A model generated the notes under the pieces. The model saw only the letters and a list, made by a program, of their open reading frames with translations, did no database searches and had not been told where the DNA came from. Source: Brassica napus (taxonomy: Eukaryota > Streptophyta > Magnoliopsida > Brassicales > Brassicaceae). From it: a stretch of 64,000 bases of DNA. Positions 605-64,000 of this stretch are shown in pieces (positions within the stretch are counted from its first letter, which is position 1; each line of letters starts with the position of its first letter). Made by a program: the position numbers and the translations under genes. Location of the stretch: the NCBI RefSeq assembly GCF_020379485.1, contig NC_063452.1:34619608-34683607 (forward strand). The letters are read 5' to 3'.

Positions 605-1411
605 TGTGATTTTAGACATTGATTCCGATGATTCTATAGGAATATCGATCGATACACTTGTTGAAACATTGACCGATTATTTGATTAGAATATCGATCGA
701 CGCTTTTGGTCTAGCCTTAATGCACGGGTTGAATATGCCCACTAAGCTTCCTAGATCATCTTTCGTCTTACTCTAGCAATCTTAGCTCAGTTACGATGGA
801 TTCAGGGTGAGATGCAAGCTATCGCTTATGTCTACAACTCCTAGGGAAAGCTGTAGGTAGCTCAATTAGATACCGTGTAGCCGTCAACAATGGCTTACAA
901 AACACATAAATAGGGTTTTAAGTCGTCCAAAGGTATTCTGGTAATTTGTGTTGCTTCTGGGCTTCAGTCGGTTATAAAATAGGCTCACCCCATAATCTGG
1001 CATCACCGTCGACCGACGGCAATGGTGCACCGTCGATCGATAGTCCTTCATCTCCTCGACAGCTTCCTCTCGCGAGGCAGACTGACTACTCTTCAGTAAA
1101 ATGGGTATAACTTCTGCTATAAGATGCTGATTGACCTCAAACCGGTAGCATTGGAAAGCTAACTCAAAGCTCTATATTGTGTCAAAGGATGAGCTCAATC
1201 TAACGGTGGAAAAGTCTCCATCCATAGCTAGACACCTGACGCGTCTGTTCAGCTCTGCTCTCAAAAGGCTCCAAAAGACACCAAAATCACCACTTTCCTC
1301 CAAATCGTCCTTGAACCTGTAAACACTCGAAATAGATTCTATATCCTAGTAGTTAGTTATTAAAACACATATAAAACATGGTTAAAAGTGGGTAAAATCG
1401 ATGGCCTATCA
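605..1411 (-). mobile_element. Truncated LTR of the SID family (minus orientation)
   Basis: The segment aligns by eye with the LTRs of C, D and E. It shares the blocks on leaf-sized paragraphs such as the Ctrl-like 'AAAAGTGGGTAAAATC' end and closes with CTATCA at 1411, the expected terminal inverted TATCA. It keeps both phased TCGATCGA clusters: 644, 669 and 693 (one base out of phase at the first step), and 1009 and 1033. The TGATA end is missing, so this is a truncated or recombined copy. It has no coding capacity. Confidence 0.7.
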
Positions 1412-2172: not shown

Positions 2173-2494
2173 GCATCGATCGACACCAACATTTATTTGT
2201 CGACCGATACTTCTCAGAAAACGTCGACTGATACTCCTAATCCGTCGACCGACAGTTGTGCGCTATTGACTATCGACACTTCAGTCTGAACATCGATCGA
2301 CATCCGTCTGCGAGACATGGTTGCGACGCTAATCCTAGAGAAGGATGAGAATGGAGACCTGCATGACCAAGAAGGTGATTTGTGTAATGTAGCAGGTCAG
2401 AGGTTAGATGATCAGAGGGCTGTAATTACTGATCAAGATGATGATATTGCCACAGCTGCTCACGCTTTAGATGATGCTGCTCGGCCCAGAATGT
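2173..2494 (+). pseudogene. Gag N-terminal fragment of a SID-family element
   Basis: The plus strand encodes a stretch rich in S-I-D and S-T-D repeats up to about 2300, then an open frame from 2317 with the acidic phrase ILEKDENGDLHDQEGDL. I recognise this as the N-terminal region of Brassicaceae gypsy gag proteins. TCGATCGA-like motifs lie at 2176, 2200 and 2224, 24 bp apart. There is a stop codon in the SID part. At 2495 the sequence is interrupted by remnant B and no continuation is seen downstream of 19660, so this is a broken fragment. It may belong with the D segment at 20418-21827, which has the same orientation. Confidence 0.6.
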
Positions 2495-9789: not shown

Positions 9790-9987
9790 TCGGAAAATAT
9801 TTTTTAAGAAGTAATTTTCGTAAAAAATTACCGAAATGGAATTTTTTACGAAAGATCCGTACGCAATACCAAAGCAATCAACCAATCGTCCGAAAACATG
9901 CTCGAAAGGAATATACAAACCGGTCAACGTACGATGATCGACCCAATGCGTAAACCGGTCGACGACCAGTTAAACCGTTAACCCATT

Positions 9988-10819: not shown

Positions 10820-11527
10820 TGATATCACTCAATCTAACAATCCTAGGGCAAGTTCTAGGTAGCTAATCTAGAATCAGGCATTAATGACAATCCTAATGAT
10901 TATTATCACAACTCAGCAATCTATAGTTGGGGCTAATCCCTCATAACCTATTTAAACCCTAAAATCTAACAATGGAACTACTCAGACATGGGCAAGCAAT
11001 TCATAACATCAATTAGGAAAGAAAACTTCATTAGAATAGTAAATAGATATCAATGGAGTTCCAATCACAAATATAACTTTGGATCTTCTCTCCAATCTAT
11101 CAAAATCATAAAAACCTTTTGCTGATAATAGTAAAACTAGAAATAAAAGAAAGCACACTTTCCTTCTAACATGGTAGCAAAGCTTATATAATTAGGTTAA
11201 AACTCGTCAGGGGTAATCTTGTAAATTTGTGAAGACTTGGGCTTCAAGTCGACTGTGACCAAACGGGCTTTCTGCGTGCTTCGCTGTCGAGCGATGTTCT
11301 GATGTGAGCATCGATCGATATTTGTTCCTCAATATCAACCGATGGTCGAGCTCGATGGTCATCTCGGGTGCTTACTCCAAATATCTCCAAAATGCTCCAA
11401 AATCATCACTTATCTCCAAATCACTCCTGATCTTATAAATATAATAAATAGACTCTATAATATAATAAATAGTATTAAAAATACCTATAAACCACGGGTG
11501 AAAGTGGGTCAAATCCATGGTCTATCA
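10820..11527 (-). repeat. 3' LTR of C, with internal deletion
   Basis: 708 bp. After the first 12 bases (TGATATCACTCA) it jumps to the sequence found at about 18255 in the 5' LTR, so about 580 bp are missing, including the downstream cluster of phased TCGATCGA motifs. The remainder matches the 5' LTR closely to the closing CTATCA. Confidence 0.85.
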
Positions 11528-12720: not shown

Positions 12721-12800
12721 TCGACCGATGTAAGGATGTTGATATCGGTCGCGGCAGGTGATGCTATGTCGATCGATGTCGACAGTGTCTCGTCGGTCGA
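12721..12800. repeat. Phased 24-bp TCGATCGA array (C, 3' interior)
   Basis: Motif starts are 12721 (TCGACCGA), 12745 (TCGGTCGC), 12769 (TCGATCGA) and 12793 (TCGGTCGA), exactly 24 bp apart, with unrelated spacers between them. Confidence 0.85.
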
Positions 12801-12968: not shown

Positions 12969-13823
12969 CTAGTGATGTTGAAAGCTGGCACTTGTTGGGA
13001 AACAAGTCCCCATCTCTTCTTTGCGCTTGTTGAACCATGTACCAGTGAAGTCTCGCATTGCATCATCTCCTCTACACCATTTGTCCTTCATTATTGTAGT
13101 TGCATCTTCTATCTTCTGCAATCTATCTCCAAGACTCTCAAGATTGAACTGATGTCTCATAACTGTGGCGTATGTGTCAATTGAGATCTCCTCTCCATGG
13201 TTGTGTGCGTCAAACATGTCTGATGTCACCTTTTGTACTAACCTCCCTCGGTTTGTAGCGTTGTCGACCGATGTCTGTCTGTGAGTGTTGGTCGATTTAT
13301 TGCTGCGTTTGTCGATCGATGCTGATGCTTCTGGTCGACAGGCAATGTAACTCTGAATCTCCACTAATTCCCTTTGAATAGCTTCAATCTTGGAAGTCAA
13401 AGCATTAATGCTAAGATCCATTGGGAAATAGATGTCATTACATCTCCTATCAAGCCTCTCTTATGTAGTTTCCAGAGCTCCGTAGATCCCTTCTACCAAC
13501 TGATCTATCTCTTCCCTTGTGTGAAAATCTGGTTGAGACTTCATCATATGTGAGTGTGGTGGATAGTCGTCAACCGATGCTGGAAAGCGATCGTCGATCG
13601 ATGCATATAAGCGACTGTCGATCGATGCCTGTCGATGTTTGTCGATCGATGTAGAGAGAGACACGTCGGTCGCACGCTTAATTCTAGCTTTGTCTTGCCT
13701 CATCTCTTCCATGCAAGTAGTTAGCCAACTGATACTATCATTCAATGGATAGTAGACTCCATCAAGCTTCATCTGGAAGTCTTCTTTGTTCTTCTCTTGT
13801 TCTCCGCAGATTCCATAGAACAT
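12969..13823 (-). CDS. Downstream ORF of C: helical SID-repeat protein, unknown role
   Basis: Two same-frame segments (13823-13461, 120 residues; 13421-12969, 150 residues) are separated by one stop codon at about 13461. The first contains [20 protein letters not shown] followed by an S-I-D repeat region. The second contains [19 protein letters not shown], an SID-poor hinge, then [19 protein letters not shown]. All three look like amphipathic helices or short coiled coils. I see no enzyme motif. It occupies the place where reverse transcriptase would lie and probably formed one protein of about 280 residues. The function is unknown; a structural or accessory Gag-like role is only a guess. Confidence 0.5.
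13570..13673. repeat. Phased 24-bp TCGATCGA array (C, downstream ORF)
   Basis: Motif starts are 13570 (TCAACCGA), 13594, 13618 and 13642 (all TCGATCGA) and 13666 (TCGGTCGC): five members with exact 24-bp spacing. On the minus strand the motif is read as S-I-D. Confidence 0.9.
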
Positions 13824-14388
13824 CTCATTGATCTTATCCTTGGTGTAGATTTCTGGTACTAGCTTGGTTTGTGTGAATGAGCTAGCAATATCTGGAAGAC
13901 ATATGTAGCTGTGCTCATCTCTCGAAGCTATTTCCAGAAGTCTTCTGATATCTTTGTTATGAACACGAATGGTGTGTCCATCTACATCTCTGGCGTATCC
14001 CTGATCATCTCTGTAGATTCCATACTCATCCTTTTCTTTCCAGTAGAATTTCCTAGTACCGAAAAGATCAAAGGCTCTTATGCCAAATTAAGGACGTCAG
14101 TCGACCGATGTTGGGACGTCAACGTCGATCGATGGTCGGGTAGGGTGTCGAGCCTTCTGTTTGAAGCGTTTATCTATGCCACCAGCTGTGTCTTAGAACT
14201 CCTTTGTAACCTTCTGCTGGTGTTCTGTAATAGTGCGTTATTGCATGAAGAGGTTGTCTGCCCCATTTGATGTCTGAAGGATGTCTGCAATATCCTCTCG
14301 AGATACGTGCAGTGTACGTTCATCTATTGCTTTTGCGTAGCCATATGGGTCCCTGAAAATACCAAATTCGTCTGAGTGGTTATCAGAT

Positions 14389-14697
14389 TTATCTTTTTCT
14401 GCTTACAGTGGTTTTTGGTTTTGGGCGGCTGTCGATCGATGTTTTATTGTTGATGTCGATCGATGTTGAAGGATTGATGTCGATCGATGGATAAATAGCT
14501 ATGTCGATCGGATGGCTGATTTGTGTTCTTTCCCAAGCAGCTTCTGCTCGTTTCTGATCTGTTTCATCGCGTCTTTGCATGTTGAGAAGTTCCTCATAAG
14601 TGAAACCCTCATGAAGTTCATCAGCTCCTTGATCACGGTATGTTGTCTCTACTGCGTAGCTCTCGTGATGGCGATCATCTATCCAACTTCCAATTGA
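14389..14697 (-). pseudogene. Remnant ORF between protease and downstream ORF of C
   Basis: Minus frame 14580-14389 (63 residues) begins MQRRDETDQKRAEAAWERTQ, then a chain of S-I-D repeats. The frame upstream of this ATG, towards 14697, reads as a helix with DELHEGFTYEELLNMQ, so the original protein was longer and probably continued from the protease reading. Phased motifs at 14432, 14456, 14480 and 14504 lie inside it. I know similar text from Brassicaceae gypsy polyproteins but no function for it. Confidence 0.5.
14432..14511. repeat. Phased 24-bp TCGATCGA array (C, after protease)
   Basis: Starts at 14432, 14456, 14480 and 14504, exactly 24 bp apart. The last one is followed by GG in place of AT. 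Spacers differ completely. Confidence 0.9.
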
Positions 14698-15678
14698 TTA
14701 ATCTCCGTCTTGGGTAGCGTCGACGTTAGTGTCGATTGATGGGTAGTAGGCGATGTCGGTCGATGCTTGAAGGTGGTTTGGTTGATGAAGTTGAGTGTCG
14801 ATCGATGTTGAACCGTTCCTGTCGATCGATGACGACTTCGTTTTCCAAGAGGAATGATGGAGAAGTCTATCTTCCTCGTCAAAAATCGCTCTTTCTTTTA
14901 CGGATCGTTCTTCCTCATAATCTTCATCGTACTCCTCCGTATGCATGTTGTGTGCTGCCGTAGTGGGATTGTAGTAATCGTTTTCCCATTCTCCTTGATT
15001 ACTGTCCACCGATTCGTCTTCCGCTCCGTCGGTCGATTTTTGCTGGGCACTGTCGATCGATGTTGCAGTGTGAGTTTCGATCGACGCTGAGTATTCTGTC
15101 TCGTACTCGTACTCAGCTCCACAGTGGCATGCTGCAATGATTCTTGGATCATTGATTTTTCTGGGGGTCGTCTGTGGCTTCTTGACTGGAATAGGGTTGT
15201 AATGGACATGAGGATCTATGAGCGTTAGGCACAACCGGTTGGTTTGCAAGTTGCACATTGCTCCTACAGTTGACAAGAAGGCTCTCCCAAGTAATAGAGA
15301 AGAGTTCCAGTTCAGCTTGATGTCCAAGACATGGAAATCTACTGGAACTAGGCCATTAGCAATCTGAACCTTTAGGTCTCTCACCATTCCTCCTGAGCTT
15401 CTCTGAGAACAATCCACATAAGTTAATAATTCCTTAGAAGGCTCCACCTGCAGACCTAGATGGTCTGCCATACCTCTAGGTAGGATGCTGACCGATGCTC
15501 CTGTGTCGCACAAGGCATGTGGGAATTCAATACCCTTCACCGTGCATGGTATTGCAAATTTCCCAGGATCACTCTTCTTCTTCAATGTAACCCTCTTCCT
15601 CATATGTTCTCTAGCTTCACAGAACATTCTCCTAATGTCTTCTTCTGTCTCTCTGGTTTCTCTGAAGAACATCCACAA
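14698..15678 (-). CDS. Aspartic protease of C with SID-repeat tail
   Basis: The open frame is 326 residues. After a helical start comes KFAIPC, then the retropepsin active site ALCDTGASVSILPRGM with the catalytic D-T-G intact. A partner segment LLLGRAFLSTVGAMCNLQ follows at about residues 135-150 (the LGR-F motif usual for Athila-type proteases). Residues about 200-326 are acidic and carry S-I-D repeats. The role by family is cutting of the Gag precursor inside particles. The reading is uninterrupted, unlike gag, so this is the best-preserved gene of the element. The start is the first ATG after the preceding stop. In the full-length protein it was probably fused to gag, as polyprotein frames are in this family. 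Confidence 0.8.
   Translation of the reverse strand: MWMFFRETRETEEDIRRMFCEAREHMRKRVTLKKKSDPGKFAIPCTVKGIEFPHALCDTGASVSILPRGMADHLGLQVEPSKELLTYVDCSQRSSGGMVRDLKVQIANGLVPVDFHVLDIKLNWNSSLLLGRAFLSTVGAMCNLQTNRLCLTLIDPHVHYNPIPVKKPQTTPRKINDPRIIAACHCGAEYEYETEYSASIETHTATSIDSAQQKSTDGAEDESVDSNQGEWENDYYNPTTAAHNMHTEEYDEDYEEERSVKERAIFDEEDRLLHHSSWKTKSSSIDRNGSTSIDTQLHQPNHLQASTDIAYYPSIDTNVDATQDGD
15005..15084. repeat. Phased 24-bp TCGATCGA array (C, protease tail)
   Basis: Starts at 15005 (TCCACCGA), 15029 (TCGGTCGA), 15053 (TCGATCGA) and 15077 (TCGATCGA), exactly 24 bp apart inside the protease frame. Confidence 0.85.
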
Positions 15679-15983
15679 TCTGTGGGTAAAATAAGCCTCA
15701 TCGAATGGCTTATCTAGAGAAATTCTGAAGACTCTTTTTCAGAAACTTTCCTTTTCCTTTTTCATTAGCCCCCCTCTTCAGATGTTTCGCCACTTTTTCC
15801 TTTCTTCTCCTTAGGGTTCTTCCCGTAGGAACCCTATCAACCTCCATAGAATCTGTTTCATCTTCTCAAGGTATCCTGACGGCCTCTGCTGGTTTTTTCT
15901 GAATGTTTGGGTTTGGGCCTGAGTTCATTTAGACGTGCAACATCTATCTTCGGCATCTGCACTCGGTATGTAATATGTGCTCG

Positions 15984-16087
15984 TCGATCGATGGGCGCTG
16001 GCGGTTGTCGATCGATGGCTGTCTCTTGATGTCGATCGATGACGGGGTCAGAATGTCGATCGATAACGGGGTCAGAATGTCGATCGA
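15984..16087. repeat. Phased 24-bp TCGATCGA array (C, gag-protease linker 1)
   Basis: Five exact TCGATCGA at 15984, 16008, 16032, 16056 and 16080, each 24 bp apart. Two neighbouring spacers are nearly identical (GGGGTCAGAATG), showing recent unit duplication; the others differ. Confidence 0.95.
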
Positions 16088-16192
16088 TTTTTACGTAGAC
16101 AGGGCTGGGCGGATTTGGGTGTTTTGCTGCGAACTCCTCGTGAGTCATGATCCTCACGGCATTGCAAGATGAGGTTGACTCCGTAGGTGTTG

Positions 16193-16272
16193 TCGATCGA
16201 TGTCCAGGAGAGGATGTCGATCGGTTTTGGATGACTTCTGTTGACCGATGTTCGTGGCTTGGCGTCGATCGA
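16193..16272. repeat. Phased 24-bp TCGATCGA array (C, gag-protease linker 2)
   Basis: Starts at 16193, 16217 (TCGATCGG), 16241 (TTGACCGA) and 16265, exactly 24 bp apart, but 113 bp from the previous array, so the phase relative to the reading frame changes. Confidence 0.9.
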
Positions 16273-16334
16273 CACCAATGCGATCCGCCGAAACTCATCA
16301 GACTCTCTACTTCGAGATTTCCTTCTTGCAGCTT

Positions 16335-17570
16335 CTATTCTTTCACCACTTGCCAGAAATCATCCCCAATGATGGCATTCACGTGGTGGTTCATCACATC
16401 ATCTTCTACCCCTCTTGTCAAGGCTCCTTGCCTCTTAAAAGCTTCTCCTGTCTGAACAACATGCATCTCCAGCTTCTTCACATGAGTGTTCAAAGTCTCA
16501 AACTTTGTGTTCAGGTTGGTGTAGACAGAATCAATCTTCCCATTGAAGTCCACTGTCATGGGTTGCTGTCCCTCGAGAACTCTATCAAGCATATCCTCAG
16601 TCTTGCTCTCTTGAGTTGGCGGTGGTTGCTTCTGGTAGTAAGAGCTTCCATAGCCCCTGTTGTTGATGTAGTTGTTGCTGTAGGGTTTCTGATGCTGCGA
16701 ACTCTGGTTGAAATTGCCCATATTTCCATAGGAGTTTCTGTTTCCACCTTGGTTTCCAGAACCTTGGAATCCAGTTCCGCTGATGAAGTTCACATATGTT
16801 TCCTCTGCTCTACCCTCTCTGTCTACAGCCTCTGCATCTTCAACAAGGCAGACCTTCTTCCTGAGAAGCTTGTGAACACTGTCCAGCATTTCCCTCACCT
16901 CATCCATCTGATCATTCCCAAGGATGGTGGCAGATCTCTTCCTCTCAAAGTCAGTGTTCTTGGTGCTACTGCTAGATGCTAGATTTTCAATGACTTTCAC
17001 TGCCTCCTCTGGATTCCTGGTGTTGAAGTTCCCATTGCTGGAAGCATCAAGAGCCATCTGGTACTGCACCGCGATGCCTCTGTAGAAAGTACTGAGTAGT
17101 TGTACTTCATTGAATCAATGGTGTGGACAGTCTCTCTGGTAAGACTTGAATCTGATCCACGAGCTTCTGAATGATTCTGCAGGCTCCTGGCTGAATGTAG
17201 CAATCTTGCTCCTCAAGTCTTCAGCACGTGCTTCATCAAAGAAGTTGCATAAGAATGCATTCTTGATGTCGCTCGAGGATGTTAGGGATCCTGGTGGTAG
17301 CTGCTTAAGCCAATGCGAAGCATCTCCAGCAAGTGAGTACTTGAAGAGCTTGCATATGAGGTAGTCTTCAGAGACTCCCTCGACTTTAGTAGCAGATATG
17401 AGATCCTTGAACCTCTCCAGATTGTCCATAGGATGAGGATCGAGCGACGAACAAGCATTGTTGTCGATCGATGAGGAGCGTGCTTCTTTGCGAATTGAAC
17501 GCTCCAAACTTGCATGATCTGGTGAGAATAGCAGTTGAGTTTTTTTGTTTCTTCTGGTACTGTTGGGCAT
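16335..17570 (-). pseudogene. Gag of C, one internal stop
   Basis: Two same-frame segments, 17570-17115 and 17069-16335, are parted by a single TGA at 17115-17117. The N-terminal part has the gag core typical of Athila-like elements: DNLERFKDLISATKVEGVSE, YLICKLFKYSLAGDASHWLK, then DEARAEDLRSKIATFSQEP. After the stop comes the helix DEVREMLDSVHKLLRKKV, an Asn/Gln/Gly-rich segment (NRNSYGNMGNFNQ) and a C-terminal helix region ending WQVVKE. Gag would assemble the particle. The first ATG (17570) lies about 80 bp after the primer site. A homologous gag piece at 63160-64000 lacks matching breaks in the same places. Confidence 0.85.
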
Positions 17571-17643
17571 GTACCTGAAAATCCAAGAAAAAAAATTTTA
17601 TGTCAGAAACTTAACAAAATTAAATCTAATAGGTGATCAAAGC

Positions 17644-17665: not shown

Positions 17666-18946
17666 TGATAACACTCAAATTACCCTAAAGAGTGAATTTA
17701 CTCTCTCAAATAAGAGGTTCAATTGCAGTACTTAGGGATGGAATCCATAAGGAGCTAGGGAACCTAATAAATCTAATGGGATTTGTTAAGTTGGATGGTT
17801 TAATGATTAAAATGTAAATTTGTAGTTTTGTTGAGCAAGTAATTGCTCGATTGATTTGTTGAGGTTTTTATTCAGGAAACTTGGAATTATAATCTTACAG
17901 ATGCCTAATGAGTTGCATGCATGATAATGTAGAGCTCAACAACTAAGCAACAAGTCAATCAGTTCTCGCGTTTCTGAACTTGTCTATTAACTAGATTTAA
18001 TGACCCAAACAAATGTGTTCGATCAATAGCAAGTGTCGATCGATTATCCTATGGGGATATCGATCGATACACCTTTCACTCGGTCGATCGATTATCCAAT
18101 ATGTATATCGATCGACGCGCTTCAAGTTAAGCTTTATGCGCAGATTGAATGATGCTCACTAGGCTCACTAGATCAGCTCTCGCTATACTCTCAGCAAGAA
18201 TCTTAGCTCAATTAGAATGATTTCAGGATGAGAATGAAGCAATCGCTTTTATCTAACAATCCTAGGGCAAGTTCTAGGTAGCTAATCTAGAATCAGGTGT
18301 TAATGACAATCCTAATGATTATTATCACAACTCAACAATCTATAGTTCGGGCTAATCTCTCATAACCTATTTAAACGCTAAAATCTAACAATGGAACTAC
18401 TCAGACATGGCCAAGCAATTCATTACAGCAATTAGGTAAGAAAACTTCATTAGAATAGTAAACAGATATCAATGGAGTTCCAATCACAAATATAACTTTG
18501 GATCTTTTCACCAATCTATCAAAATCCTAAAAACCTTTTGCTGATAACAGTAAAACTAGAAACACAAGAAAGCACACTGTGCCTCTAACATGGTGGCAAA
18601 GCTTATGTAATTAGGTTAAAACTCGTCAGAGGTAATCTTGTAAATTGGTGAAGACTTGGGCTTCAAGTCGGCTGTGACCAAACGGGCTTTCTGCGCGCTT
18701 CGCTGTCGATCGATGTTCTGATGTGAACATCGATCGATATTTGTTCCACAATATCGACCGATGGTCGAGCTCGATGGTCATCTCGGGTGCTTTCTCCAAA
18801 TATCTCCAAAATGCTCCAAAATCATCACTTATCTCCAAATCACTCTTGATCTTATGAATATAATAAATAGACTCTATAATATAATAATTAGTAGTAAAAT
18901 CACCTATAAATCATGGGTGAAAGTAGGTCAAATCGATGGTCTATCA
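17666..18946 (-). repeat. 5' LTR of C
   Basis: 1,281 bp with TGATAACAC at the left end and TCTATCA at the right. It has two phased TCGATCGA clusters (18036-18115 and 18706-18761). It resembles the LTRs of D and E over most of its length. No long open frame is present apart from chance frames. Confidence 0.9.
18036..18115. repeat. Phased 24-bp TCGATCGA array in the LTR of C
   Basis: Four exact TCGATCGA at 18036, 18060, 18084 and 18108, exactly 24 bp apart, in non-coding LTR sequence. A second set follows at 18706, 18730 and 18754 (TCGACCGA), again 24 bp apart. Confidence 0.95.
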
Positions 18947-19045
18947 AGCAGCTCTCGTGTGGTTTTCTCGCCTTAAGAGAAACTCTATCGGAAGTTTTCA
19001 GCAGCTCGCATCGGAGTTTCTCAAACTACTCAATGTTCATAGATA
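18947..19045 (+). pseudogene. Gag fragment of B, second half
   Basis: This continues the gag frame interrupted at 10819: [20 protein letters not shown] matches gag of A. It breaks after about 30 codons and passes into LTR-like sequence near 19045 (AATCGTATAAACGCC, compare 10350 in the other LTR part). Confidence 0.75.
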
Positions 19046-19660
19046 GAGAAATCGTATAAACGCCAAAAGGCCTAAGAACGATCCGCAAGGATCCAAACTG
19101 GTCTAGAGGCCAATCTACGCTCTCAGAAGGGATTTGAGCCCATAAAAGTTATGACTGTTTGTCCTAACTCGCAGAAATACGATAAATGCTAAGTTTCCAA
19201 AGATAAATGTAAAGATTCGAGGATAACTATCAAGATCGACGAAAAATGGAATATTCCCAAAAGAGATAGACTTAGGCCCGAAGGCGAAGGATGGGCCACC
19301 GACCTAGAGCGACTATATATGGAGAGCAGGAGCAGAAGAAAAGGGGACCCGAGAATTTGGACTTAGAGAACTCCTGCTAGCTTAGAGAACTTAGGGCTTA
19401 GGTGGTTAGACTAGCACGGCAAGGCTTAGGACGTCTTGGCCGCCTCTTGTCTTGTTGTTTCGATAGTTAGCATATCTCTACTCCTCTCAGAGAAATCTTG
19501 TATTCATACTATTCAATAAAATGCCTCTGAGCGATTATCTATCTTTTTATCGTTCTAAAGTGATTACGCAGAGAATTCGGACCTTCATGGAAAAACGGGT
19601 TCACTCGGTTTTCCTCTATTATTATTTGTTATAATCGACGGTGTGAATTTTGGTTCCCAC
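19046..19660 (+). repeat. LTR 3' part of B
   Basis: The segment carries a TATA box (19314-19320), an AATAAA (about 19516) and the closing GTGTGAATTTTGGTTCCCAC, which matches the LTR end of A. It is the downstream remnant of B. Confidence 0.6.
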
Positions 19661-20417
19661 TAGTCTCTCTTACTCTCTCTCTAAAGTGAGGCACGGTTTT
19701 GGAATGGGAAAATGGCAAGGGGATGGCTTGGTATTTATAGGAAAAGGGTGGGATGCATGGCTGTGCAAGGTGTCATCACCACATTCCATTTTGGTGACAA
19801 ATGTGACAAATGGCTGAGATCTTTTACACAAGGACAAGTGTTCCCGCTTCTAGAAGACTTCCCTGGGGGTGCCACACGTCCTCCTCTCTGAGCCAATGAA
19901 AAATCGACACTTGGTTCAATTGAAATCGCGCCACTTTGCATCCTCCTCGACCAGTTATCTTCTACCACATCATCTCTTCATTTTTTATCAATAATCCTTT
20001 GCCACATCATCAACTTTAACAAATCCTCAAGTGGATATATTTTGTCAATAAAATAACTCCTGAATGCTCCATTCTTGTTCTGTTGCTTAAATCTCACCCG
20101 ATGAAAAGATTTCGACCAAAACCGGGTTCCTCCTGACCACATAAATTTTTCTTCGACCAAACTCCATATTCTGACTCCAAAATCCTTAGGAAATGTTCCT
20201 AGGTTACTCCTCATACTCCCTAGTGCATTCTTCTCCTCTTCTTCCATCTACTCCACCATTCTCGCTTCCGAATCGACCAAAACGCAAATTACCCGAACCA
20301 TTTGAATTCTTCTTCGACAAAATGTCTTCTTTTGGACCATGCACAGCATCCCAACCAAGGTTTACCTAATCTAGAGGTTTTGATTTTCTCGACCACAAAC
20401 TACCCTAAGACACTACA
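19661..20417 (-). mobile_element. Chromovirus-like LTR remnant (minus orientation)
   Basis: In minus orientation it starts TGTAGTGTCTTAGGGTAGTT at 20417. A TATA box (CTATAAATA, minus strand, about 19733-19741) is followed by a CT-rich leader (19662-19685), the order expected for an LTR promoter. It shares phrases with 1412-2172. Its left end is cut by the end of B. The minus frames at 19968-19735 and 20247-19978 have no recognisable domain. Confidence 0.45.
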
Positions 20418-20738
20418 GTGATCATATTAGATTGTAAATTGTGTGAGTCCCTGCAATTTTTAAAACCTCTTTGCAAAGGGTACCCTTTGTTTTGCTTGAC
20501 GACAAGCAAAAAGGAAAGTCTGGGGGGTATGATATACCATTGATTTTACCCACTTTCAGCCATGGTATATAGGTGTTTTAGAAACTACCTATGTTGGTTT
20601 GGAGTCCTTTTAGCACTTTTACAGGTTCAGGGATGACTTGGAGAAAAGTGGTGATCTGGGTGCATTGTGGAGATAAAATGAGAGGAAGCTCGAAGCTGAC
20701 CATCAAACAAGTTCTAGGTCGGCATTCAGAGTCCACCA

Positions 20739-20770
20739 TCGATCGATGCACACTCTGTGCTATCGATCGA
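20739..20770. repeat. Phased TCGATCGA pair, first LTR cluster of D
   Basis: Exact motifs at 20739 and 20763, 24 bp apart, corresponding to 18706-18761 in C, 28780/28804 and 23391/23415 in E, and 1009/1033 in the fragment at the left. Confidence 0.9.
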
Positions 20771-21352
20771 CAGCAAAAAATGCAAAGCCCAACCGGCTTA
20801 AAACCCAAGTCAAGATATAATTACAGAAATACCCATGGCTTACTTTGAACCTAATATTTATGTTCTCTGCCATTGTTCTAGGCAACACATGCTTTCTACA
20901 CTATTCCTATTTTCTAGTTTTCGTACAACAAAGCTTTTTATTAGATTTGGAGAGAAGATCCAGGACTCCTTCCGAAATTTATATTAAAACTCCAGTATTT
21001 CTAACCTTAATTTATTTATGAATTTATTTATGTTATTTGATATGAATTGCTTTGCTATGTCTGAGTAGTTCATCTTGTTAGGTTTAGGGTTCAGATAGTC
21101 ATGAGGGATTAGCCCAAAATATAGAATTGCTAAGTTGTCTGGATATCCATCAATTGAATTGCCTTTAATGATTGTGTTCTAGCGTAGCTAACTAGGACCC
21201 TGTTCTTAGATAATTGGGTGCAAGCGGAAGCATGGTCCTTTGTCTGATCTAATTCATATTGTGCTAGGATTGCTAGAAACAAGCGACAGTTCATTTACTT
21301 AAACCTAGTGAACACATTCAAACCCGCTCGCTAAAGCTTGCTAGAAGGGACG

Positions 21353-21432
21353 TCGATCGACAACTCGTTAGTTGCATCGATCGACAGACTGAAAGGTGTA
21401 TCGATCGACTATCCATTGATAGCATCGATCGA
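21353..21432. repeat. Phased 24-bp TCGATCGA array, second LTR cluster of D
   Basis: Four exact TCGATCGA at 21353, 21377, 21401 and 21425, exactly 24 bp apart, about 400 bp before the LTR end, the same relative place as in C and E. Confidence 0.95.
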
Positions 21433-21827
21433 CACTTTCTCAAGACCAACAAATGACAATTGAGGTCTTAGATCTAGATAATAGATAATCTAAACAAACA
21501 GAAGTTGAAAGATTATTTTTTTAGTTTGAGCTCTAGGATATCCAATATACAACCTTAGTCTCTATACTACTATAATCATGATTGTGTGAATAGAAACCCT
21601 TAGTCTAACGCTTCTCATAATTGTTTACAAAACCTCAATCCAATCAACCGAACAATTGCATTGTTCACTACTGCAATTTACTATTTCCATAATTGACCTA
21701 GCTTAATTATAAACTGTTGAAGATCTTTTGTGTGCCTCAGCTTCTTGTAGATTCGATCCTTAAGTACTACAACTCAAACTCTTATTTGAGAGAGTCCAAA
21801 TCATTTACGGTAATTTTAGTGATATCA

Positions 21828-22344: not shown

Positions 22345-23780
22345 TGATATCACTCAAATCACCCTAATTGATTTGTACTCTCTCAAACAAGAGGTCGAGT
22401 TGTAGTACTTAGGGATCGAATTCACAGAGAGCTAAGGTACACAATAGATCTAAACAGTTTATGATTAAGCGAGGTAAATTATAGTAATAGTCAATTGTAG
22501 TAAGTAAAGTAAAACATTGGTGAACAAGGCAGTTGTTCAGTTGATTATAAATCAAGAGTTTGCTTGTTATGGAAGGATGGTTGCTAGACTTAGGGTTTCA
22601 GGTTACCAGGATTATAATGATATAGATGCTAAGGGTTGATCTTAGAACTCAAACTTAAGTAATAATCTATCAACTACATCCGTTTGTTTAAATTATCTAA
22701 TGTCTAGATCTCAGATCTCAACTTTCGTTTGTTGATCATGAGAAAGTGTCGATCTATGTTTCTATATGAATATTGATCGATATACCTTTCAAAACGTCGA
22801 TCGATACAACTGTCGTCGTGTTGATCGATGTTTCTTCTAGCAAGCTTTAGCGAATGGGTTTGAAATGTTCACTAGGTTTCCTAGATCAACTGTCGTTTAT
22901 TTTTTAGCAATCCTAGCTCAGCAGATTTAATTACACCATGATGTCGTGTGCGCCTAACTATCCTATGATCAGGGTTCAAGTTAGCTACTCTAGGACACAA
23001 GCAGTAAGAATAATTCAGTAAAAGATTCAATTATCACCCTAGCAATTCTATATTTTGGGCTAATCCTTCATAACCCTATTTAATCATAAACCTAGCATGT
23101 GGATCTACTCAAACATGAAATTTGTCAAAAAAATCATAGATGAATAGATAAAAAATATAAATCAACAATAATACTAATGGAGTTCCAAGAGGACTCTAAA
23201 GGAGTTCCTTTCTACTCTCCTAACCTAAGAGAAAACCTAAAACATAGAATAGAAAGCATAGCCGTCAATAATGGCTTAGAAACCACATAAATATGGTTTC
23301 AAGTCGTACGTGGGCATCTTGGTAATTTGTGGTTGCTTCTGATTTTTAGTCGGTCTTCAAATATACTTGGCCCGCGTTCTGGAATCACCATCGATCGACA
23401 CCAAGGCTGTGTCGTCAATCTACGTTCTATTCGTCTCCTCGACAACTCTCTCCCTCTCGCGAGACAGACTGGCCACTCTTCAGTAAAACATGCATAACGT
23501 CTGATCTAACCGTTAGATTGACCTAAAACCGGTGGCATCGGAAAGCTAGCTCAAATCCCTATATCGTGTCAAACGATCAGCTCAATATCACCATGGGAAG
23601 GTCTCCATCCATATCTAAAAATCTGACACGTTTGTGCAGTTTCGCAACTCAAAAGGCTCCAAAAGGCCCCAAAATGTACATGAACCTGAAAACACTCTAA
23701 AACATACTCCAAACCCATATAATATACTCTAAAACACTCATATACCATGGCTAAAAGTGGTTAAAATCCATGGTATATCA
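22345..23780 (-). repeat. 3' LTR of E
   Basis: 1,436 bp. Phased motifs lie at 22749 (TCGATCTA), 22773 (TTGATCGA), 22797 (TCGATCGA) and 22821 (TTGATCGA), all 24 bp apart, and at 23391 and 23415. It matches the 5' LTR closely but lacks the long CT tract. Confidence 0.9.
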
Positions 23781-24400: not shown

Positions 24401-24992
24401 TACTATAGATTTTACCTTCCAAACTTGCAGGAGGAATCCAATCTAATGTATACCAAGCCCCAAGACAAGCAGATTAAGTTTATTTAGGTTGGAGATCAGC
24501 TTTGGTTCCTTAAAACATTCTCAACAAGTGTGGATAATTGGCAGGTGATCCACTTTAGTATCTCTAATACACTCTACAGTCAATAAGTTTAAGAGTGGTG
24601 CTATTTTATAAAACTCTTAGATAAACTAAATATCAGTAAACCTCCTCCCTAGACTTAAATTACAATGTCCCCAGTGTATATCTAGTCGAAGTTTGGCAAG
24701 AACATAAATCATAAGTACATAATGTAACAAGGAAAACGATATACATGCTCGCTGATGTCAGTATCGATCGACAGAATAAAGTGGCAATCAATCGTTTTTG
24801 GTGTCGTACTATCGATCGATATCGACCAGGTCCCAATGTAAAACATAATATTAGTTGAACCTCCCCACAATTAAGCAACACTGCCCCCAGTGTTATAGAG
24901 TCTAATATTGGTGAGAAAATAAAACATAAGTACTAAATTAAACAAGGTTTCGCGAGTATAAATTCCATTGATGTGAGTATCAATCAACAAAG

Positions 24993-25391
24993 TTAAGCGG
25001 CGATCGATATTTGTGATGCTCTGTTGATTAATACGCTGGCCAGCCGTCGATCGATGCTCGTCCTCAACTCATGAAAGTTGGATCTTTTTTTTCTTCCTTT
25101 TTTGATGAACAGTACATCTGCTATAGTGTCGATCGATACTGGTACAGTGGTATCGTTCAGCGCAGCTACAGTGTCGTTGCTCGGTGCTGCTACAGTGTCG
25201 TCGCTCGGCACTGCTACAGTGTCGTCGCTCGGTGCTGCTACAGTGTCGTCGCTCGGTGCTGCTACAGTGTCGTCGCTCGGTGCTGCTACAGTGTCGTCGC
25301 TCGGTGCTGCTACAGGGTCGTCGTCACTGTTCATCTTTTTTCTTTTTTTTACCTGAAATAAACAAAACCCAAAAATCTTATTTAAAACCAT
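24993..25391 (-). CDS. Small repeat protein ORF of E
   Basis: An open frame of 132 residues. After a hydrophobic start and KKRKKMNSDDD comes PSDDTVAA repeated about seven times, then PVSIDTIAD, a basic patch (KKGRKKRS) and SIDRR. The repeat is the product of a 24-bp tandem repeat in the DNA. No domain is recognised. It corresponds in position to the downstream ORF of C. It may not be translated. Confidence 0.35.
   Translation of the reverse strand: MVLNKIFGFCLFQVKKRKKMNSDDDPVAAPSDDTVAAPSDDTVAAPSDDTVAAPSDDTVAVPSDDTVAAPSNDTVAALNDTTVPVSIDTIADVLFIKKGRKKRSNFHELRTSIDRRLASVLINRASQISIAA
25165..25323. repeat. 24-bp tandem repeat, about 6.6 copies
   Basis: Units GCTACAGTGTCGTCGCTCGG + TGCT start at 25165, 25189, 25213, 25237, 25261, 25285 and 25309. 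They differ by one or two bases. The 24-bp length equals the phasing of the TCGATCGA motif elsewhere in the family, and the unit contains the degenerate form TCGTCGCT. Confidence 0.95.
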
Positions 25392-25532: not shown

Positions 25533-26201
25533 TCAACAACTTTTTATGAAATCCTCCATACAGTGATCTCCCTTGTCTATCATCTCAGCAATAAGTAGTG
25601 CTCGAAGCTTTGCAAATGGCTGTGAGAAACATCTGCTGCTCACTCTGGATTTTCTGACGCCATCCAAGACGTGAGGAAAAAATAATAACTGAGGACCTCC
25701 TTTGGTCATTTTTCTCTTCTTCCAATTCCTCATCTTCTTTCTCCCAGACTTGTCTGGCCGCGTGGTGGTGCCTCCATCAAAAAGATTTCGACACACTTCA
25801 ACCTCTTTCTGCTCTGTTACGCATCCGGTGTCAATCGACGATGAAGTGGAAGTGTCGATCTATGCTTCTTCTGTTGAGCCTTTGATGATTTCACCTCTGA
25901 ATCTCAACCCTCTCTGAGAAGCTACTGCAAACATATGATCGTCAAATGCCCTATTGTAGAAACCCAGATTCACACTTCTATCTGGTAAGATAGGAAATTC
26001 AACTTCAACCATAGCGCATGAAACAACAAACTTCACAGGGTCATTTATCCTTTTCACTCTTTTGTGAATCCTAGCAACTTCTTCTGCCCATATAAGTGGT
26101 CTCTGATGTTTGAGGACAGAAAGATGTGAGCTCTCAGATTTGTGCATTCTTTCCTCAGTCGGTTCCAGCTCAACCACGCAACTCTGCAATTCGTCCAACA
26201 A
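25533..26201 (-). pseudogene. Protease-derived region of E without D-T-G
   Basis: Two same-frame segments, 26201-25860 and 25796-25533, are parted by a stop near 25860. The piece HKRVKRINDPVKFVVSCAMV followed by EVEFP aligns with RKRVTLKKKSDPGKFAIPCT followed by EFP in the protease of C. But where C has CDTGASVSILP, E has PDRSVNLGFYN, so the catalytic aspartate triad is absent. The second segment is basic (RKKMRNWKKRKMTKGG) and then PFAKLRALLIAEMIDKG. If this protein was used, it was not as a protease. Homology is judged by eye. Confidence 0.5.
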
Positions 26202-26303
26202 TGTGTGTCGATTGATGTAATCTGGTGGGCATAGATCTATCCTATCTGTTGCATGTCGAGCGACGATATAGGGTGGGTGTCGATCAATCTCATTAGGTTG
26301 GTG

Positions 26304-26793
26304 TCAATCGATGCTAGCCTTTGGTGAAGTTTCTCGATCTCCTCTCGAAGTATGTTGATCGTCATCAAAATTCTTCTTTGAATTCCGTTCCATTCCTTCA
26401 AGCCATTCCTCCAGCATCAAGAAGTCTTCCATAGTAACTTCCATTCTCGAATACAAATCTTCAAGCTGTTCTCCATCCTTTAACTCCAAGAATTCTTCTA
26501 GCTCCAAGAAATTTTCCAGGTAATCTCTTTTTCTACATCTGGGCAGGATAACAACTTGATGCATCAGTTTTCTTCTGTGTCGAGTCTGAAATGTCCTGAG
26601 GACAACTCGATCTTTTTGGGATTTCTAGTGGTCTCGTTCGGAAACATGATTCTCCGTCGATCGATGCTGAGATGGTGTGGTCGATCGATTCTGAGGTGCT
26701 ACCGTCGATCGATGCTAAGTGAAGATCACCCATATCAGCTTCTTCTGTTATGTTTGGCTCTCCAGATCCATGATATTCATCTCTCTTCGCCAT
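26304..26793 (-). pseudogene. Acidic linker ORFs of E
   Basis: Frames 26793-26533 and 26564-26304 overlap in different phases. The first carries SIDGSTSESIDHTISASIDG from phased motifs at 26657, 26681 and 26705. The second is a Glu/Leu-rich helix (LENFLELEEFLELKDGEQLE). Together they fill the place between gag and protease, as the linker of C does. Confidence 0.45.
26657..26712. repeat. Phased 24-bp TCGATCGA array (E, linker)
   Basis: Three exact TCGATCGA at 26657, 26681 and 26705, 24 bp apart, read S-I-D on the minus strand. Confidence 0.9.
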
Positions 26794-26840: not shown

Positions 26841-27731
26841 CTAGATTTGCTGCAACATCATAGAGAAATTTGTTGAGGAAGGCGTTTGCGATGTCATTCC
26901 AGGCAGTAAGGGAGTCTGGTAGAAAATTCTTGAGCCATTGGGCTGCATTCCTGGCAAGAGAGTATGGGAAGAGTTTGCAGAAGTAGTGTTCTTAAAAGCC
27001 TCCATTGAAGAAAAACAATACCAATTCCTCAAACATGTTGATATGATCCATTGTTTGCTCGTGAGGAAAGCCATGAATGGGACGCAGACGCATAATCTTG
27101 ATATATATAGGTTTCAGCTCAAAGTCTTCCCTCTTAGCAACACTCGGTATGAGTACCTCGACCATCTCTGGATCCCCAAAAGTAGTGTCGTTTTTCACTT
27201 GATAAACAGTGTCGAGATGAACAGTGTCGGAATGAACAATAACGCGGAAAAAGTGTCGCAATGAACAGTGTCGTTGTGAACAATGTCGATCGACGCGAGA
27301 TGAACATTGTGGATCGATACGGGATGAACAGGGTTGTTCGACGGAGGATGAACAGTATCGTCCGACGGAAGATGTAAAGTACTGAGATGAACAGTACTGA
27401 GATGAACAGTACTGAGATGAACAGTGCCATGATGAACAGTGCGGCGATGAATAGTATCGTCCGACACATGGTGAACAGAGTCGTTCGACATCAGATGAAC
27501 AGTGTTGTTCAGTGCTTAGTTCAAGATGTCGATCGCTGCTGCTTGGAGGGTGTCGATCGATACTTCCCTCGTAGATTTACGGATCGTGCGTGAATCAGCT
27601 GGCTTTTTCTTTGAAGAACCAAAAAATCGTCTCTTCATTGTTGTTACTGGTACTAAGATGCATGTACCTGAAACAGAAAAAAAAAATAAAAAATTAATGA
27701 GTTTTCTTAAACAGTAGAAAAACCTAGACAA
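26841..27731 (-). pseudogene. Gag of E, several frame changes
   Basis: Starts near MKRRFFGSSKKKPADSRTIR (ATG about 27636) soon after the primer site. It then runs through short His/Thr-rich repeats (27134-27491), then the gag core ELKPIYIKIMRLRPIHGFPH at 27261-26992, and in another frame a stretch equivalent to CKLFPYSLARNAAQWLKNF near 27000-26900. At least one stop (about 27518) and two frame changes break it. This is a diverged relative of gag in C. Confidence 0.7.
27384..27430. repeat. 15-bp tandem repeat, three copies
   Basis: AGATGAACAGTACTG three times in a row inside gag of E, giving a 5-residue repeat (T-V-H-L-S) on the minus strand. Looser copies of GATGAACAGT occur from 27208 to 27500. 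Confidence 0.85.
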
Positions 27732-27788: not shown

Positions 27789-28832
27789 TGATATCACTCA
27801 AATTATCCTAAATGATTTGTATTCTCTCAAATAAGATGTCGAGTTGTAGTACTTAGGAATCAAATCCACAGGGAGTTATAGGGTACACAAAAGATCTAAA
27901 CAGTTTATGATTAAGGTAGGTAAATTATAGTAATAGTAAATAAAGTAAAGCAGTGGTGAACAAGGTAGTTGTTCAGTGATTATAAATCAAGAGTTTGTTT
28001 GTTATGGAAGGATGGTTGCTAGACTTAGGGTTTCAGGTTATCAGGATTATAATGATATAGATGCTAAGGGTTGATCCTAGAACTCAAACTTACGTAATAA
28101 TCTATCAACTTTCGTTTGTTTAGATTATATAATGTCTAGATCTCAGATCTCAACTTTCGTTTGTTGATCATGAGAAAGTGTCGATCTATGATTCTATATG
28201 AATATCGATCGATACACCTTTCAAAACGTCAATCGAATGGGTTTGAAGTGTTCACTAGGTTTCCTATATCAACTATCATTTGTTTTTAGCAATCCTAGCT
28301 CAGTAGAATTAAATCAGCAAGTAAACCATGTTGTCGCGTGCGCCTAACTATCTTATGATCAGGGTTCTAGTTAGTTACTCTAAAACACAAGCAGTAAGAA
28401 TACTCCAGTGAATGATTCGATTATCACCCTAGCAATTCTACATTTTGGGCTAATCCTTCATGACCCTAATTAATCTTAAACCTAGCAGGTGGATTTACTC
28501 AAACATAAAGGTTGCACATAAATCATAGATGAATAGATATAGAATATAAAATCAATAAAGAAACCAATGGAGTTCCAAGAAGACTCTAAAGGAGTTCTTC
28601 TCTTGTCTCCTAAGCTAAGAGAAAACTTACAACATAGAATAGAAAGTGTAGCAGTCAACAATGGTTTAGAAAACACATAAATATGGTTTTAAGCCGTCCA
28701 GGGGCATGTTGTAATTTTTGGTTGCTTCTGGGCTTTAGTCGGTCTTCAAATATACTCGGCCTGCGTTCTGGCATCATCGTCGATCGACACCAAGGCTGTG
28801 TCATCGATCGACATTCCATTCGTCTCTTCGAT

Positions 28833-63160: not shown

Positions 63161-64000
63161 GCTACTTAGCCAAACTCTACATAGGAAAAAAGGAGTTGGT
63201 CGATGTTAAGGCTAAGCTGTATAGTGTTCACAAACTTCTCAAGAAGCAGGTTAGCTTTGCAGATGATATGGAAGCTGTAGATGTCAACAGTGACAGATGT
63301 TTTGAGGAGGATGTGAACTTCATCAGTGGTACCAGTTCAGAGTGGATACAGAAACTCCTATGGGAATGGACAGAGGAGTAACTTCAACCAGAATTCACAG
63401 TTCCAGAAACCCTACAGCAACAACTTCAACAACGGCAGCAACAAAAACTATGGAAATTCTTCCTATCAGAACGTGTTACCACAGACTCGAGATAGCAAGA
63501 TAGAAGCAATGATTGATCAAGTTCTTGAGGGCTAGCAGAAGCTGATGGTGAATGTCAATTGGAAGATAGATGATGTCTACACTGAGCTGAATGAAAAGTT
63601 TGAGACTCTGACTACACATGTGAAGAAGTTTGAGACACAAGTGGTTCAGACATGAGAAGCTGTTAAGAAACAAGAGACCTTCATCAAGGGTAAAGGAGAT
63701 GAAGCACTGAAGTACCACGTGAATGCAATCATAGAGGATGATTTTTGGCAGGTGGTTAAGGAGGAAAAGCTTCAGGAGGGAGACATCTGAGCTTCGACAG
63801 TTCACATTGGTGTCGACTGACTTCAAGAGAGGAACATCGATCGATGGGATTAGACGAACACCGATTGATGGAGTCAGTTGCACATGCGAGACGTGAGAAT
63901 CATGACCCATAAAGAGTTTGCACCTATACACCCTCATCCACCCAAACCCTTTTGTATGAAAGATATCGATCGGAAGAATGAGCCAGTCGCCGATCGACAG
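63160..64000 (+). pseudogene. Gag fragment of a SID-family element, cut by window end
   Basis: Frames 63079-63381 and 63326-63535, with open continuation, match gag of C from its middle on: VKAKLYSVHKLLKKQVSFAD, NSYGNGQRSNFNQNSQFQKP, and later KYHVNAIIEDDFWQVVKEEK. Stops (63533, 63654, 63788) and a frame change near 63345 show decay. Phased motifs lie at 63813, 63837 and 63861 and at 63966 and 63990, 24 bp apart within each group. The element continues beyond the window. Confidence 0.75.

Follow-up and report, generated by a model that had tools for sequence, protein, structure and literature searches.

The locus and its retroelements

The stretch of DNA analysed here, referred to as the window, spans 64 kb of a Brassica napus contig, and its motif-bearing elements (a left fragment and the elements C, D and E; Table 1) are Athila-type Ty3/gypsy retrotransposons. 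In the Brassicaceae, Athila is one of the principal retrotransposon groups of the pericentromeres. Among the open reading frames (ORFs) scanned in element C only gag and protease domains were found, with no reverse transcriptase (RT) or integrase. The right long terminal repeat (LTR) of C, read in sense, starts with TGATAG near 18946, ends with GTTATCA at 17666 and is followed by AATTTGGCGCCGTTGCCGGGGA, which we take to be an Athila-type primer-binding site; TG..CA ends with a primer-binding site just inside are as expected of Athila. A full-length copy (L008/L009) carries PF03732, RVT_1, RT_RNaseH, rve and PF03078 (2.4e-25), and the domain order in the full-length relative is that of Athila, the integrase following RNaseH and preceding ATHILA ORF-1 (PF03078). 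Element D lies in the opposite orientation to C, and positions 63216-63842, beside the motifs at the end of the window, align to the gag region of C.

Table 1. Motif arrays and associated features of the window (units by start position).
Feature	Positions	Strand	Remarks
Array, left Athila LTR fragment	645..700		645, 669 (two mismatches), 693
Second cluster, left LTR fragment	1009..1040		1009 (one mismatch), 1033
Two interleaved arrays outside LTR	2176..2300		2176/2200/2224 and 2245/2269/2293
Array, truncated left LTR of C	11287..11342		
Array between C ORFs and left LTR of C	12721..12800		12721/12745/12769/12793
Array in ORF 12969-13460, SID frame	13264..13319	-	
Five-unit array, ORF 13461-14087, SID frame	13570..13673	-	three exact, outer two with two mismatches
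Array between minus-strand ORFs of C	14101..14132		
Four-unit array, ORF 14389-14697, SID frame	14432..14511	-	
Aspartyl protease (retroviral-type) ORF, C	14698..15738	-	Pfam PF13975 5.4e-08
Two arrays, protease ORF, SID frame	14732..14829	-	42 bp apart, mutually out of 24-bp register
Array, protease ORF, SID/STD frame	15005..15084	-	
Five exact units, ORF 15858-16334, IDR frame	15984..16087	-	
Four units, ORF 15858-16334, RST frame	16193..16272	-	codon phase differs from neighbouring IDR array
Retrotrans_gag ORF, C	17115..17597	-	PF03732 2.5e-15
Array near gag start, SID frame	17440..17471	-	
Right LTR of C (5' LTR in coding sense)	17666..18947	-	then primer-binding-site-like stretch in sense
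C LTR cluster 1, M-S1-M-S2-M-S3-M	18036..18115		four exact motifs
C LTR cluster 2	18706..18761		three motifs, last = TCGACCGA
D LTR cluster 2	20739..20770		
D LTR cluster 1	21353..21432		four exact motifs
E first LTR, cluster 1	22749..22828		one exact, three with one mismatch
E first LTR, cluster 2	23391..23422		one exact, one unit with two mismatches
Array inside E, between ORFs and LTR	24764..24819		
Decayed array inside E	25831..25862		
Decayed five-unit array inside E, mostly IDR frame	26208..26311	-	
Three exact units inside E	26657..26712		
Four-unit array inside E, IDR-like frame	27286..27365	-	two units with two mismatches
Partly decayed array inside E	27457..27560	-	
E second LTR, cluster 1	28181..28236		
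E second LTR, cluster 2	28780..28811		
Single motif and decayed pair, window end	63837..63997		pair at 63966/63990

A palindrome repeated at a 24-bp pitch

The motif TCGATCGA occurs in 54 exact copies in the window, against 0.89 expected from dinucleotide shuffles (100 shuffles, top count 3), and all 54 lie in the Athila stretches (21.7 of 64 kb), whose limits were drawn after the motif positions had been seen. The repeated unit consists of a 12-bp palindrome, YR-TCGATCGA-YR, and 12 variable bases; in the flanks of 187 phased motifs the next base is Y in 367 of 374 cases and the one after it R in 332 of 374. Units are arranged in runs of two to five. An earlier note, made from the letters of the window, had listed 26 motif positions and a distance histogram as a check: 18 of the positions are exact, seven have one mismatch and one (23415) has two, and the 24-bp register is kept within each group. 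A histogram of exact pairs peaks sharply at 24 bp and its multiples in the window, where pairs within 200 bp lie 24 bp apart 21 times, 48 bp 12 times, 72 bp five times and at any other distance at most twice. Genome-wide, 22,260 exact pairs at 24 bp compare with one in a reversed control. Genome-wide pairs summed over the sixteen distances from 8 to 23 bp number 4,008 (reversed control 70), and over the twenty-three distances from 25 to 47 bp 16,227 (reversed control 26). Among the first places listed, all on contig C1, one repeated LTR family accounts for many of these other pairs, with distances of 23, 42 or 47 bp, and a few 32-bp pairs fall in a repeat not placed in any element; that repeat apart, the motif is short, repeated within one transposable element (TE) family and rare elsewhere.

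The pitch recurs in copies of the family chosen independently of the motif. In 20 copies picked with a motif-free probe (20 of 40 scored matches; 2,407 candidates) together with the window copy, 38 pairs lie at 24 bp, 19 at 48 and 11 at 72, with any other distance up to 100 bp seen at most once; a separate set of 20 loci was selected for holding a 24-bp pair. The arrays are not confined to non-coding LTRs, where the earlier note had placed them: window motif positions set against LTR alignments put 21 of the 54 copies in LTRs and 33 outside them, many in the gag and protease ORFs of C. One full-length relative has ten clusters, the first in one LTR and the last at the beginning of the other, with gaps of 0.5-1.7 kb, and the motifs of its RT and RNaseH-integrase ORFs fall outside the Pfam domains.

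Divergence of the spacers

The spacers are mostly unlike each other, as first described, with the exception of a minority. Neighbouring inner 12-mers share 4.48 of 12 bases on average compared with 3.28 for random spacer pairs, and 7 of 87 neighbouring pairs reach at least 8 of 12, so that a minority of units represents recent 24-bp duplications (for example 16032/16056). Between LTR families the motifs retain an identity of 0.87-0.94, against 0.49 for S1, 0.68 for S2, 0.40 for S3 (the spacers of LTR cluster 1) and 0.55 for the flank, a comparison that covers 194 of the 210 pairs of 21 LTRs, those at most 80% identical; 29 LTRs had their starts placed by hand, and the 21 used had the S2 signature needed for the comparison, which conditions on the motif before S2. 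By both measures spacers align less well than the motif, and a simple minisatellite was rejected since whole units are not alike between copies.

Within one LTR family the motif is kept no better than the flank at matched site classes (0.950 versus 0.942 at non-CpG positions and 0.833 versus 0.805 at CpG columns, both intervals including 0), and there is therefore no sign that motif CpGs escape decay by methylation. A first count suggestive of CpG protection, with 83% for the motif versus 73%, was lost when columns that are CpG in most copies were used.

The motif within reading frames

In ORFs of 200 aa or longer the motif occupies the three codon phases 29, 18 and 8 times; these occurrences represent 52 distinct motifs, some of them lying in ORFs that overlap, out of a total of 232 exact motifs from 21 sources. 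All three phases are found within a single 452-aa ORF, and two within one ORF of the window (15858-16334). Serine is encoded by the rare codon TCG in 88% of 51 phased S[IVT][DE] triplets compared with 9% elsewhere in the same 28 ORFs, and isoleucine by ATC in 40 of 43 cases in phased triplets compared with 38% elsewhere. The use of three phases and the bias towards TCG led us to reject selection at the peptide level for the SID repeat: what is selected is the nucleic-acid sequence, motif and pitch alike, rather than the peptide. The cis-acting element under selection postulated in the earlier note thus gains support, in that its spacers diverge from each other and its 24-bp peak recurs in family copies.

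The corresponding 8-residue period is also found in proteins of other species, in a set of 120 proteins and in 47 of 59 gag relatives, the latter with two of four named Raphanus proteins; a phased pair is absent in B. carinata P0163 and in Raphanus P0162 and P0164. Six relatives of ORF-1, from Capsella, Cardamine and Arabis, hold no phased pairs, which is uninformative because the ORF-1 frame of B. napus itself holds only one motif.

Self-complementary LTR spacers

Some of the LTR spacers resemble hairpins. Against a half-swap null, the longest stem in the first LTR set averages 3.85 versus 2.97 for S1 (n=13, including three spacers added by hand from LTRs without the S2 signature), 3.55 versus 2.55 for cluster 2 (n=22) and 3.67 versus 3.03 for S3 (n=9, p 0.024; one hand-added spacer dropped out as a look-alike), with no self-complementarity in S2. 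The 87 other spacers, which belong to none of the named LTR sets although some could be of LTR origin, give 2.49 versus 2.37, with p 0.086 under half swap but z 3.8 under inner shuffle. With all spacers pooled, dyads are in no clear excess (top z 2.2; 46 exact and 97 relaxed spacers once look-alikes had been taken out). S1 covariation amounts to 0.442 versus 0.238 in shuffles with 28 spacers and, after addition of six more, to 0.398 versus 0.246 with 34, none of 500 shuffles reaching the observed value in either set and slid controls scoring lower throughout. With 34 spacers, two stricter counts, one of pairs in which both sides had changed and one of the types of pair, were ordinary (reached by 87 and 71 of 500 shuffles).

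Further places beyond 15.4 Mb, a mixture of coding and LTR sites, give 2.78 versus 2.52 (n=41 after look-alike removal, p 0.028; 60 of 66 places listed, each of the six omitted being identical to one kept), and stricter removal leaves n=31 and p 0.09. The hairpins were not replicated in a new set of fourteen LTR pieces, which had been selected by their S1 sequence and so were informative for S3 and cluster 2 only (p 0.18 when these were pooled and 0.56 for cluster 2 by itself); the pooled p was 0.09 before the addition of four S3 places (three distinct spacers) from pieces with an S1 or S2 unit of 23 or 25 bp or otherwise off. An RNA structure, mentioned in the earlier note, is accordingly no more than suggested, by S1, S3 and cluster 2 and against S2 and the new LTRs.

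Proposed function and alternative explanations

The arrays have the look of a protein's landing pad (or of a signal in RNA), kept to the point that codon choice is made to fit. We propose, with confidence evenly balanced, that they constitute a cis-acting recognition system of Brassica Athila, bound by a putative protein that would act on the chromatin of the element and aid transcription or escape from silencing. Arrays at two places in each LTR and in the linkers between coding domains would be occupied by a sequence-specific, probably homodimeric DNA-binding protein, with dimers placed next to one another at 24-bp steps. Binding might then bring the element transcription or escape from silencing, as with the VANC arrays of VANDAL transposons. 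The protein could be encoded by the host or by the element, the candidate in the latter case being the post-integrase ATHILA ORF-1. Searches for a binding protein found none: the domain search with ORF-1 returned only ATHILA, a weak Transposase_32 (7 of 19 members, best 5e-4) and three single matches at chance level, and the AlphaFold model of ORF-1 is poor (mean pLDDT 44.5). Against binding by a protein count the like conservation of motif and flank within one LTR family, the 23- and 25-bp spacings of some LTRs and a pitch that does not correspond to an integral number of turns of B-DNA; nor does binding to duplex DNA account for the hairpin-like LTR spacers.

A stronger version, which we hold to be rather unlikely, is that a protein of the element itself binds the 12-bp palindrome at 24-bp pitch along the whole of Athila, as its own anti-silencing or chromatin-address system; a binding code would then be written through the coding sequence in three frames, and the proteins would bend to the cis-code. 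As far as the literature searched shows, such a system would be without precedent among LTR retrotransposons. A fixed-pitch code kept within coding sequence would reveal a means by which a retrotransposon labels its own DNA or RNA. The array also offers a ready probe of which protein binds and with what effect on methylation, small RNAs or packaging. Annotators are cautioned that selection on DNA can lie behind the SIDxxxxx repeats of Brassica 'hypothetical proteins'.

The hairpins could be a by-product of reverse transcription or replication, if the template is switched from one palindrome to its neighbour and one spacer arm is thereby copied onto the other; stems would then stay complementary without any selection for structure. 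This is a reasonable possibility, somewhat short of an even chance, and is compatible with protein binding. One cluster-2 spacer (L050), when reverse-complemented, is identical to the spacer usual in the family, as expected from switching across a hairpin, and small duplications or deletions surround the motifs in L051, L052, L055 and L058. However, a single flip was seen, S2 shows no such effect although it lies beside S1 and S3, and the process accounts for spacers only, leaving over the motif, the pitch and the codon choice.

The main rival to a protein-binding array is an RNA signal for packaging or dimerisation, whereby the palindromes pair two genomic RNAs or bind Gag and the spacer hairpins present or hold them. 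The self-complementarity of the motif and its distribution along the element are in keeping with such a role, as are the first-set spacers and an S1 covariation beyond all shuffles. We nevertheless consider it unlikely: YR flanks would be unexpected from RNA pairing, mismatched S1 stem cells, read antisense to the coding strand, show no lean to sense-strand wobble (G.T 8 and A.C 5 with 28 spacers; 12 and 6 with 34), and the hairpins weaken in the other, pooled and new-LTR spacers; the unexceptional stricter S1 counts with 34 spacers lowered its odds slightly. Retroviral dimerisation palindromes are likewise self-complementary in retroelement RNA, but normally occupy one or two sites in the 5' leader loop, whereas the Athila motif has many sites along the element, with a pitch.

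Use by the host, as nucleation of silencing by 24-nt siRNAs or as a docking or integration target, appears improbable; each motif has two CpGs and the title of PMC6911290 names palindromes as frequent LTR-retrotransposon targets, but there would presumably be no advantage to an element in preserving a target for silencing, still less in writing one into its codons, and none of the present results points to the 24-nt siRNA link raised in the earlier note. Most improbable of all is a neutral minisatellite or peptide repeat (SIDxxxxx) with no cis role, for although some units are recent duplications, motifs decay like the flank within a family and a 24-bp period, as a multiple of 3, makes arrays harmless in frame, this would leave the three codon phases, the Ser codon bias, the motifs of non-coding LTRs and a between-family motif identity of ~0.9 against 0.4-0.7 for spacers.

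Comparison with known repeat systems

No description of the Athila array was found among the open-licence PubMed Central papers that the searches listed. The nearest counterparts are the arrays bound by VANC proteins in Arabidopsis VANDAL (Mu-like) transposons, where VANC21 has the 9-base motif YAGTATTAY (PMC5735166, PMC10398659). Both are short, family-specific motifs repeated in one TE family, for VANC in tandem-repeat regions. However, VANDAL is a DNA transposon and Athila a retrotransposon, the VANC arrays are described in non-coding regions whereas those of Athila also occupy ORFs in three frames, and the parts of the VANC descriptions consulted give no fixed pitch comparable to the 24 bp of Athila; VANC moreover acts via a TE-encoded protein and demethylation, while the Athila array is known here from its sequence.

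Sireviruses (Ty1/copia) carry repeated motifs in the LTR and linker, with a few extra copies at the start of ENV; most of the repeated motifs have a CGG-CCG core (PMC2829016). The Athila arrays share with these a palindromic motif repeated in LTRs, and the Tnd-1 motif ACAATCGATTGT has the ATCGAT core in common with that of Athila. In the text available, the Sirevirus motifs are mentioned neither in gag-pol nor with a fixed pitch, and Athila has both; the integrase after RNaseH and the ATHILA ORF-1 of the full-length relative rule out membership of the Sireviruses.

The short interrupted repeat cassettes (SIRC) of A. thaliana are a heterogeneous class, 3,050 in number and with repeats measuring 10-29 bp, and, like the Athila arrays, combine short direct repeats with unrelated spacers, their maximum being pericentromeric (PMC10342631, in the portions seen). 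The term '24 bp' is absent from the main text of that paper, which in those portions names no palindrome of this sequence and makes no coding-frame argument. ATHILA2 and ATHILA6A are said there to hold SIRC-like sequences.

Motif excess, pitch and extended site

The palindrome TCGATCGA is present in 54 copies in the window, against 0.89 expected, and its exact pairs lie 24 bp (21 pairs), 48 bp (12) or 72 bp (5) apart, any other distance up to 200 bp being found at most twice. Genome-wide, 22,260 exact pairs stand at 24 bp (reversed control 1), while the sixteen distances of 8-23 bp sum to 4,008 (control 70) and the twenty-three of 25-47 bp to 16,227 (control 26). Many of the off-24 pairs among the matches listed, all on contig C1, are spaced by 23, 42 or 47 bp and belong to a single repeated LTR family; a few are spaced by 32 bp, in a separate repeat. 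Among the same listed matches, a dispersed repeat at G000:C1 3.8-9.0 Mb has the ends TCGATCGATCC...GGATCGATCGA at 32 bp, with no link made to Athila.

In 21 sources (the window plus 20 loci picked because they hold a pair), the 464 positions lying 24 bp from an exact motif, on one side or the other, include 156 exact copies and 84 with one mismatch; exact motifs number 12 at 23 bp and 2 at 25 bp. The 24-bp peak that the earlier note proposed to look for in other family copies is also present when these are found with an LTR probe lacking the motif: 20 such copies and the window copy give 38 pairs at 24 bp, 19 at 48 bp and 11 at 72 bp, and at most one at any other distance up to 100 bp.

Because the bases adjacent to 187 phased motifs are Y in 367 of 374 cases, and the next ones R in 332 of 374, the repeat unit is a 12-bp palindrome, YR-TCGATCGA-YR, plus 12 variable bases. 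The 8-bp core and the 24-bp period first described are real, but the site is longer, and 48 of the 54 window copies match it in full. Among one-mismatch variants, TCGACCGA and its complement TCGGTCGA are the most frequent.

Elements carrying the motif

The motif-bearing stretches of the window, which lies in Brassica napus, are Athila-type Ty3/gypsy retrotransposons and fragments thereof. The LTRs of C, D and E align at 66 to 84% identity, and the 5' LTR of element C (coding sense) is followed by a primer-binding-site-like stretch. The ORFs beyond the protease of element C have no Pfam match and are an uncharacterised part of this Athila element, which is possibly non-autonomous.

Features of the window
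Feature	Position	Description
Element C	about 10.8-18.9 kb	coding on minus strand; gag and aspartyl protease domains
ORFs of element C	12969-14087	beyond protease; SID arrays
IDR-phase array	15984-16087	element C; one ORF shared with RST array
RST-phase array	16193-16272	element C; one ORF shared with IDR array
LTR D	20.4-21.8 kb	opposite orientation; relative
Element E	22.3-29.2 kb	relative
24-bp tandem repeat	25128-25323	element E; codes APSDDTVA; adjoins motif copies, with decayed-looking motif
LTR-like pair	2541-3920 and 8593-9784	85-89% identity
gag domain	4891-5553	inside LTR-like pair, with 33/67/100-bp minisatellites
LINE-like element	31186-35015	DUF4283, zinc knuckle, reverse transcriptase
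Direct repeat	37381-38428 and 40028-41075	1,048 bp, 100% identical, 2.6 kb apart
gag-containing ORF	37909-39873	overlapped by direct repeat

Elsewhere in the genome, L008/L009 is a full-length relative in which ATHILA ORF-1 (PF03078) comes last, after gag, RT, RNaseH and integrase in that order. Its ten motif clusters, separated by nine intervals of 0.5-1.7 kb, extend from the first LTR to the start of the second. The first LTR has two of them and the linker next to it has one; single clusters lie where the ORF-1 frame starts, between ORF-1 and integrase, between the zinc-binding and RNaseH domains, before RT, between RT and gag, close to the gag start and in the second LTR. No motif in the RT or integrase ORF falls within a Pfam domain.

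Selection on the nucleic acid

The target of selection is the nucleic acid. The motif had been described as a feature of non-coding LTRs, yet in our tally against the LTR alignments LTRs account for only 21 of the 54 window copies, the other 33 lying outside them, and arrays cross the ORFs of element C in differing codon phases, mostly that read as SID. In 28 motif-holding ORFs of at least 150 aa, the serine of 51 phased S[IVT][DE] triplets is TCG in 88% (9% elsewhere in those ORFs) and the isoleucine of phased triplets is ATC in 40 of 43 (38% elsewhere). With ORFs limited to 200 aa or longer, the three phases number 29, 18 and 8; a single 452-aa ORF of L010 has all of them. Proteins of other species have the corresponding 8-residue period, also in all three phases: pairs 8 residues apart in 120 proteins comprise 89 SID, 40 IDR and 22 RST, and a phased pair is found in 47 of 59 gag relatives (two of the four named Raphanus proteins among them) and in a Sinapis protein from the first protein search. 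The 24-bp tandem repeat of element E is a 24-bp unit expanded whole.

Between LTR families (21 LTRs give 210 pairs, of which the 194 at most 80% identical were compared), the four cluster 1 motifs are 87-94% identical, against 40-68% for the spacers (S1 49%, S2 68%, S3 40%) and 55% for the flank; because the LTRs were selected by their S2 signature, the motif preceding S2 is conditioned on, but the remaining three are not. Within the C family, with site classes matched, the motif is kept no better than the flank, and the motifs of element E are mutated. Since inserted copies seem to decay neutrally, selection presumably operates in active lineages, which fits a function required for propagation.

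Putative spacer hairpins and proposed function

Arrays most likely bind a sequence-specific, probably homodimeric protein acting along element chromatin. This reading rests on a palindromic site that has a flexible YR step at either end, on runs of 2-5 sites and on the strict pitch; the element would benefit from the putative protein through transcription or anti-silencing. As far as the sources compared describe them, VANC/VANDAL is the nearest precedent in mechanism and Sirevirus RMs the nearest among retrotransposons; the discussion of a paper on sunflower and Arabidopsis methylation raises the question of extra ORFs of this kind in Tork and Athila, and of their influence on methylation (PMC12844716).

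The main rival is RNA dimerisation or packaging, on which the LTR spacers bear. Cluster 1 is typically M-S1-M-S2-M-S3-M (M, motif; TGATA orientation, antisense to the C/E coding strand) and cluster 2 mostly M-S-M. Against a spacer-half-swap null, self-complementarity is high in S1 (z 4.8), cluster 2 (z 6.1) and S3 (z 2.4); 87 other spacers give z 1.5 by half swap and z 3.8 by inner shuffle, and S2, which keeps YACACCTTTC, is without a hairpin (z 0.0). Covariation in 28 S1 spacers is 0.442 (0.238 shuffled) and, with six added, 0.398 in 34 (0.246 shuffled), scores reached by none of 500 shuffles in either set and lower in slid controls for both; in the 34, double-sided pair changes (87 of 500 shuffles) and pair types (71 of 500) are ordinary. 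The S3 and cluster 2 hairpins did not replicate in new LTR pieces (pooled p 0.18). On these comparisons the LTR spacer hairpins are suggestive. Mismatched stem cells show no lean to sense-strand wobble, which gives no preference for sense RNA over DNA.

Template switching across the spacer arms would fit as a non-selective origin of the LTR stems. It fits one copy, L050 (G000:C650:31778-32538): its cluster 2 has the usual family spacer in exact reverse complement, the stretch between the palindromic arms having undergone a small inversion, which shows that spacers can flip. In cluster 2 of L051 (G000:C475:3709812-3710572), an off-phase motif comes from a short duplication, which offers a view of array length change.

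Other features of the window

Exact TCGATCGA is absent from positions 2300 to 11311 of the window. The 1,048 bp direct repeat is a very recent duplication or insertion.
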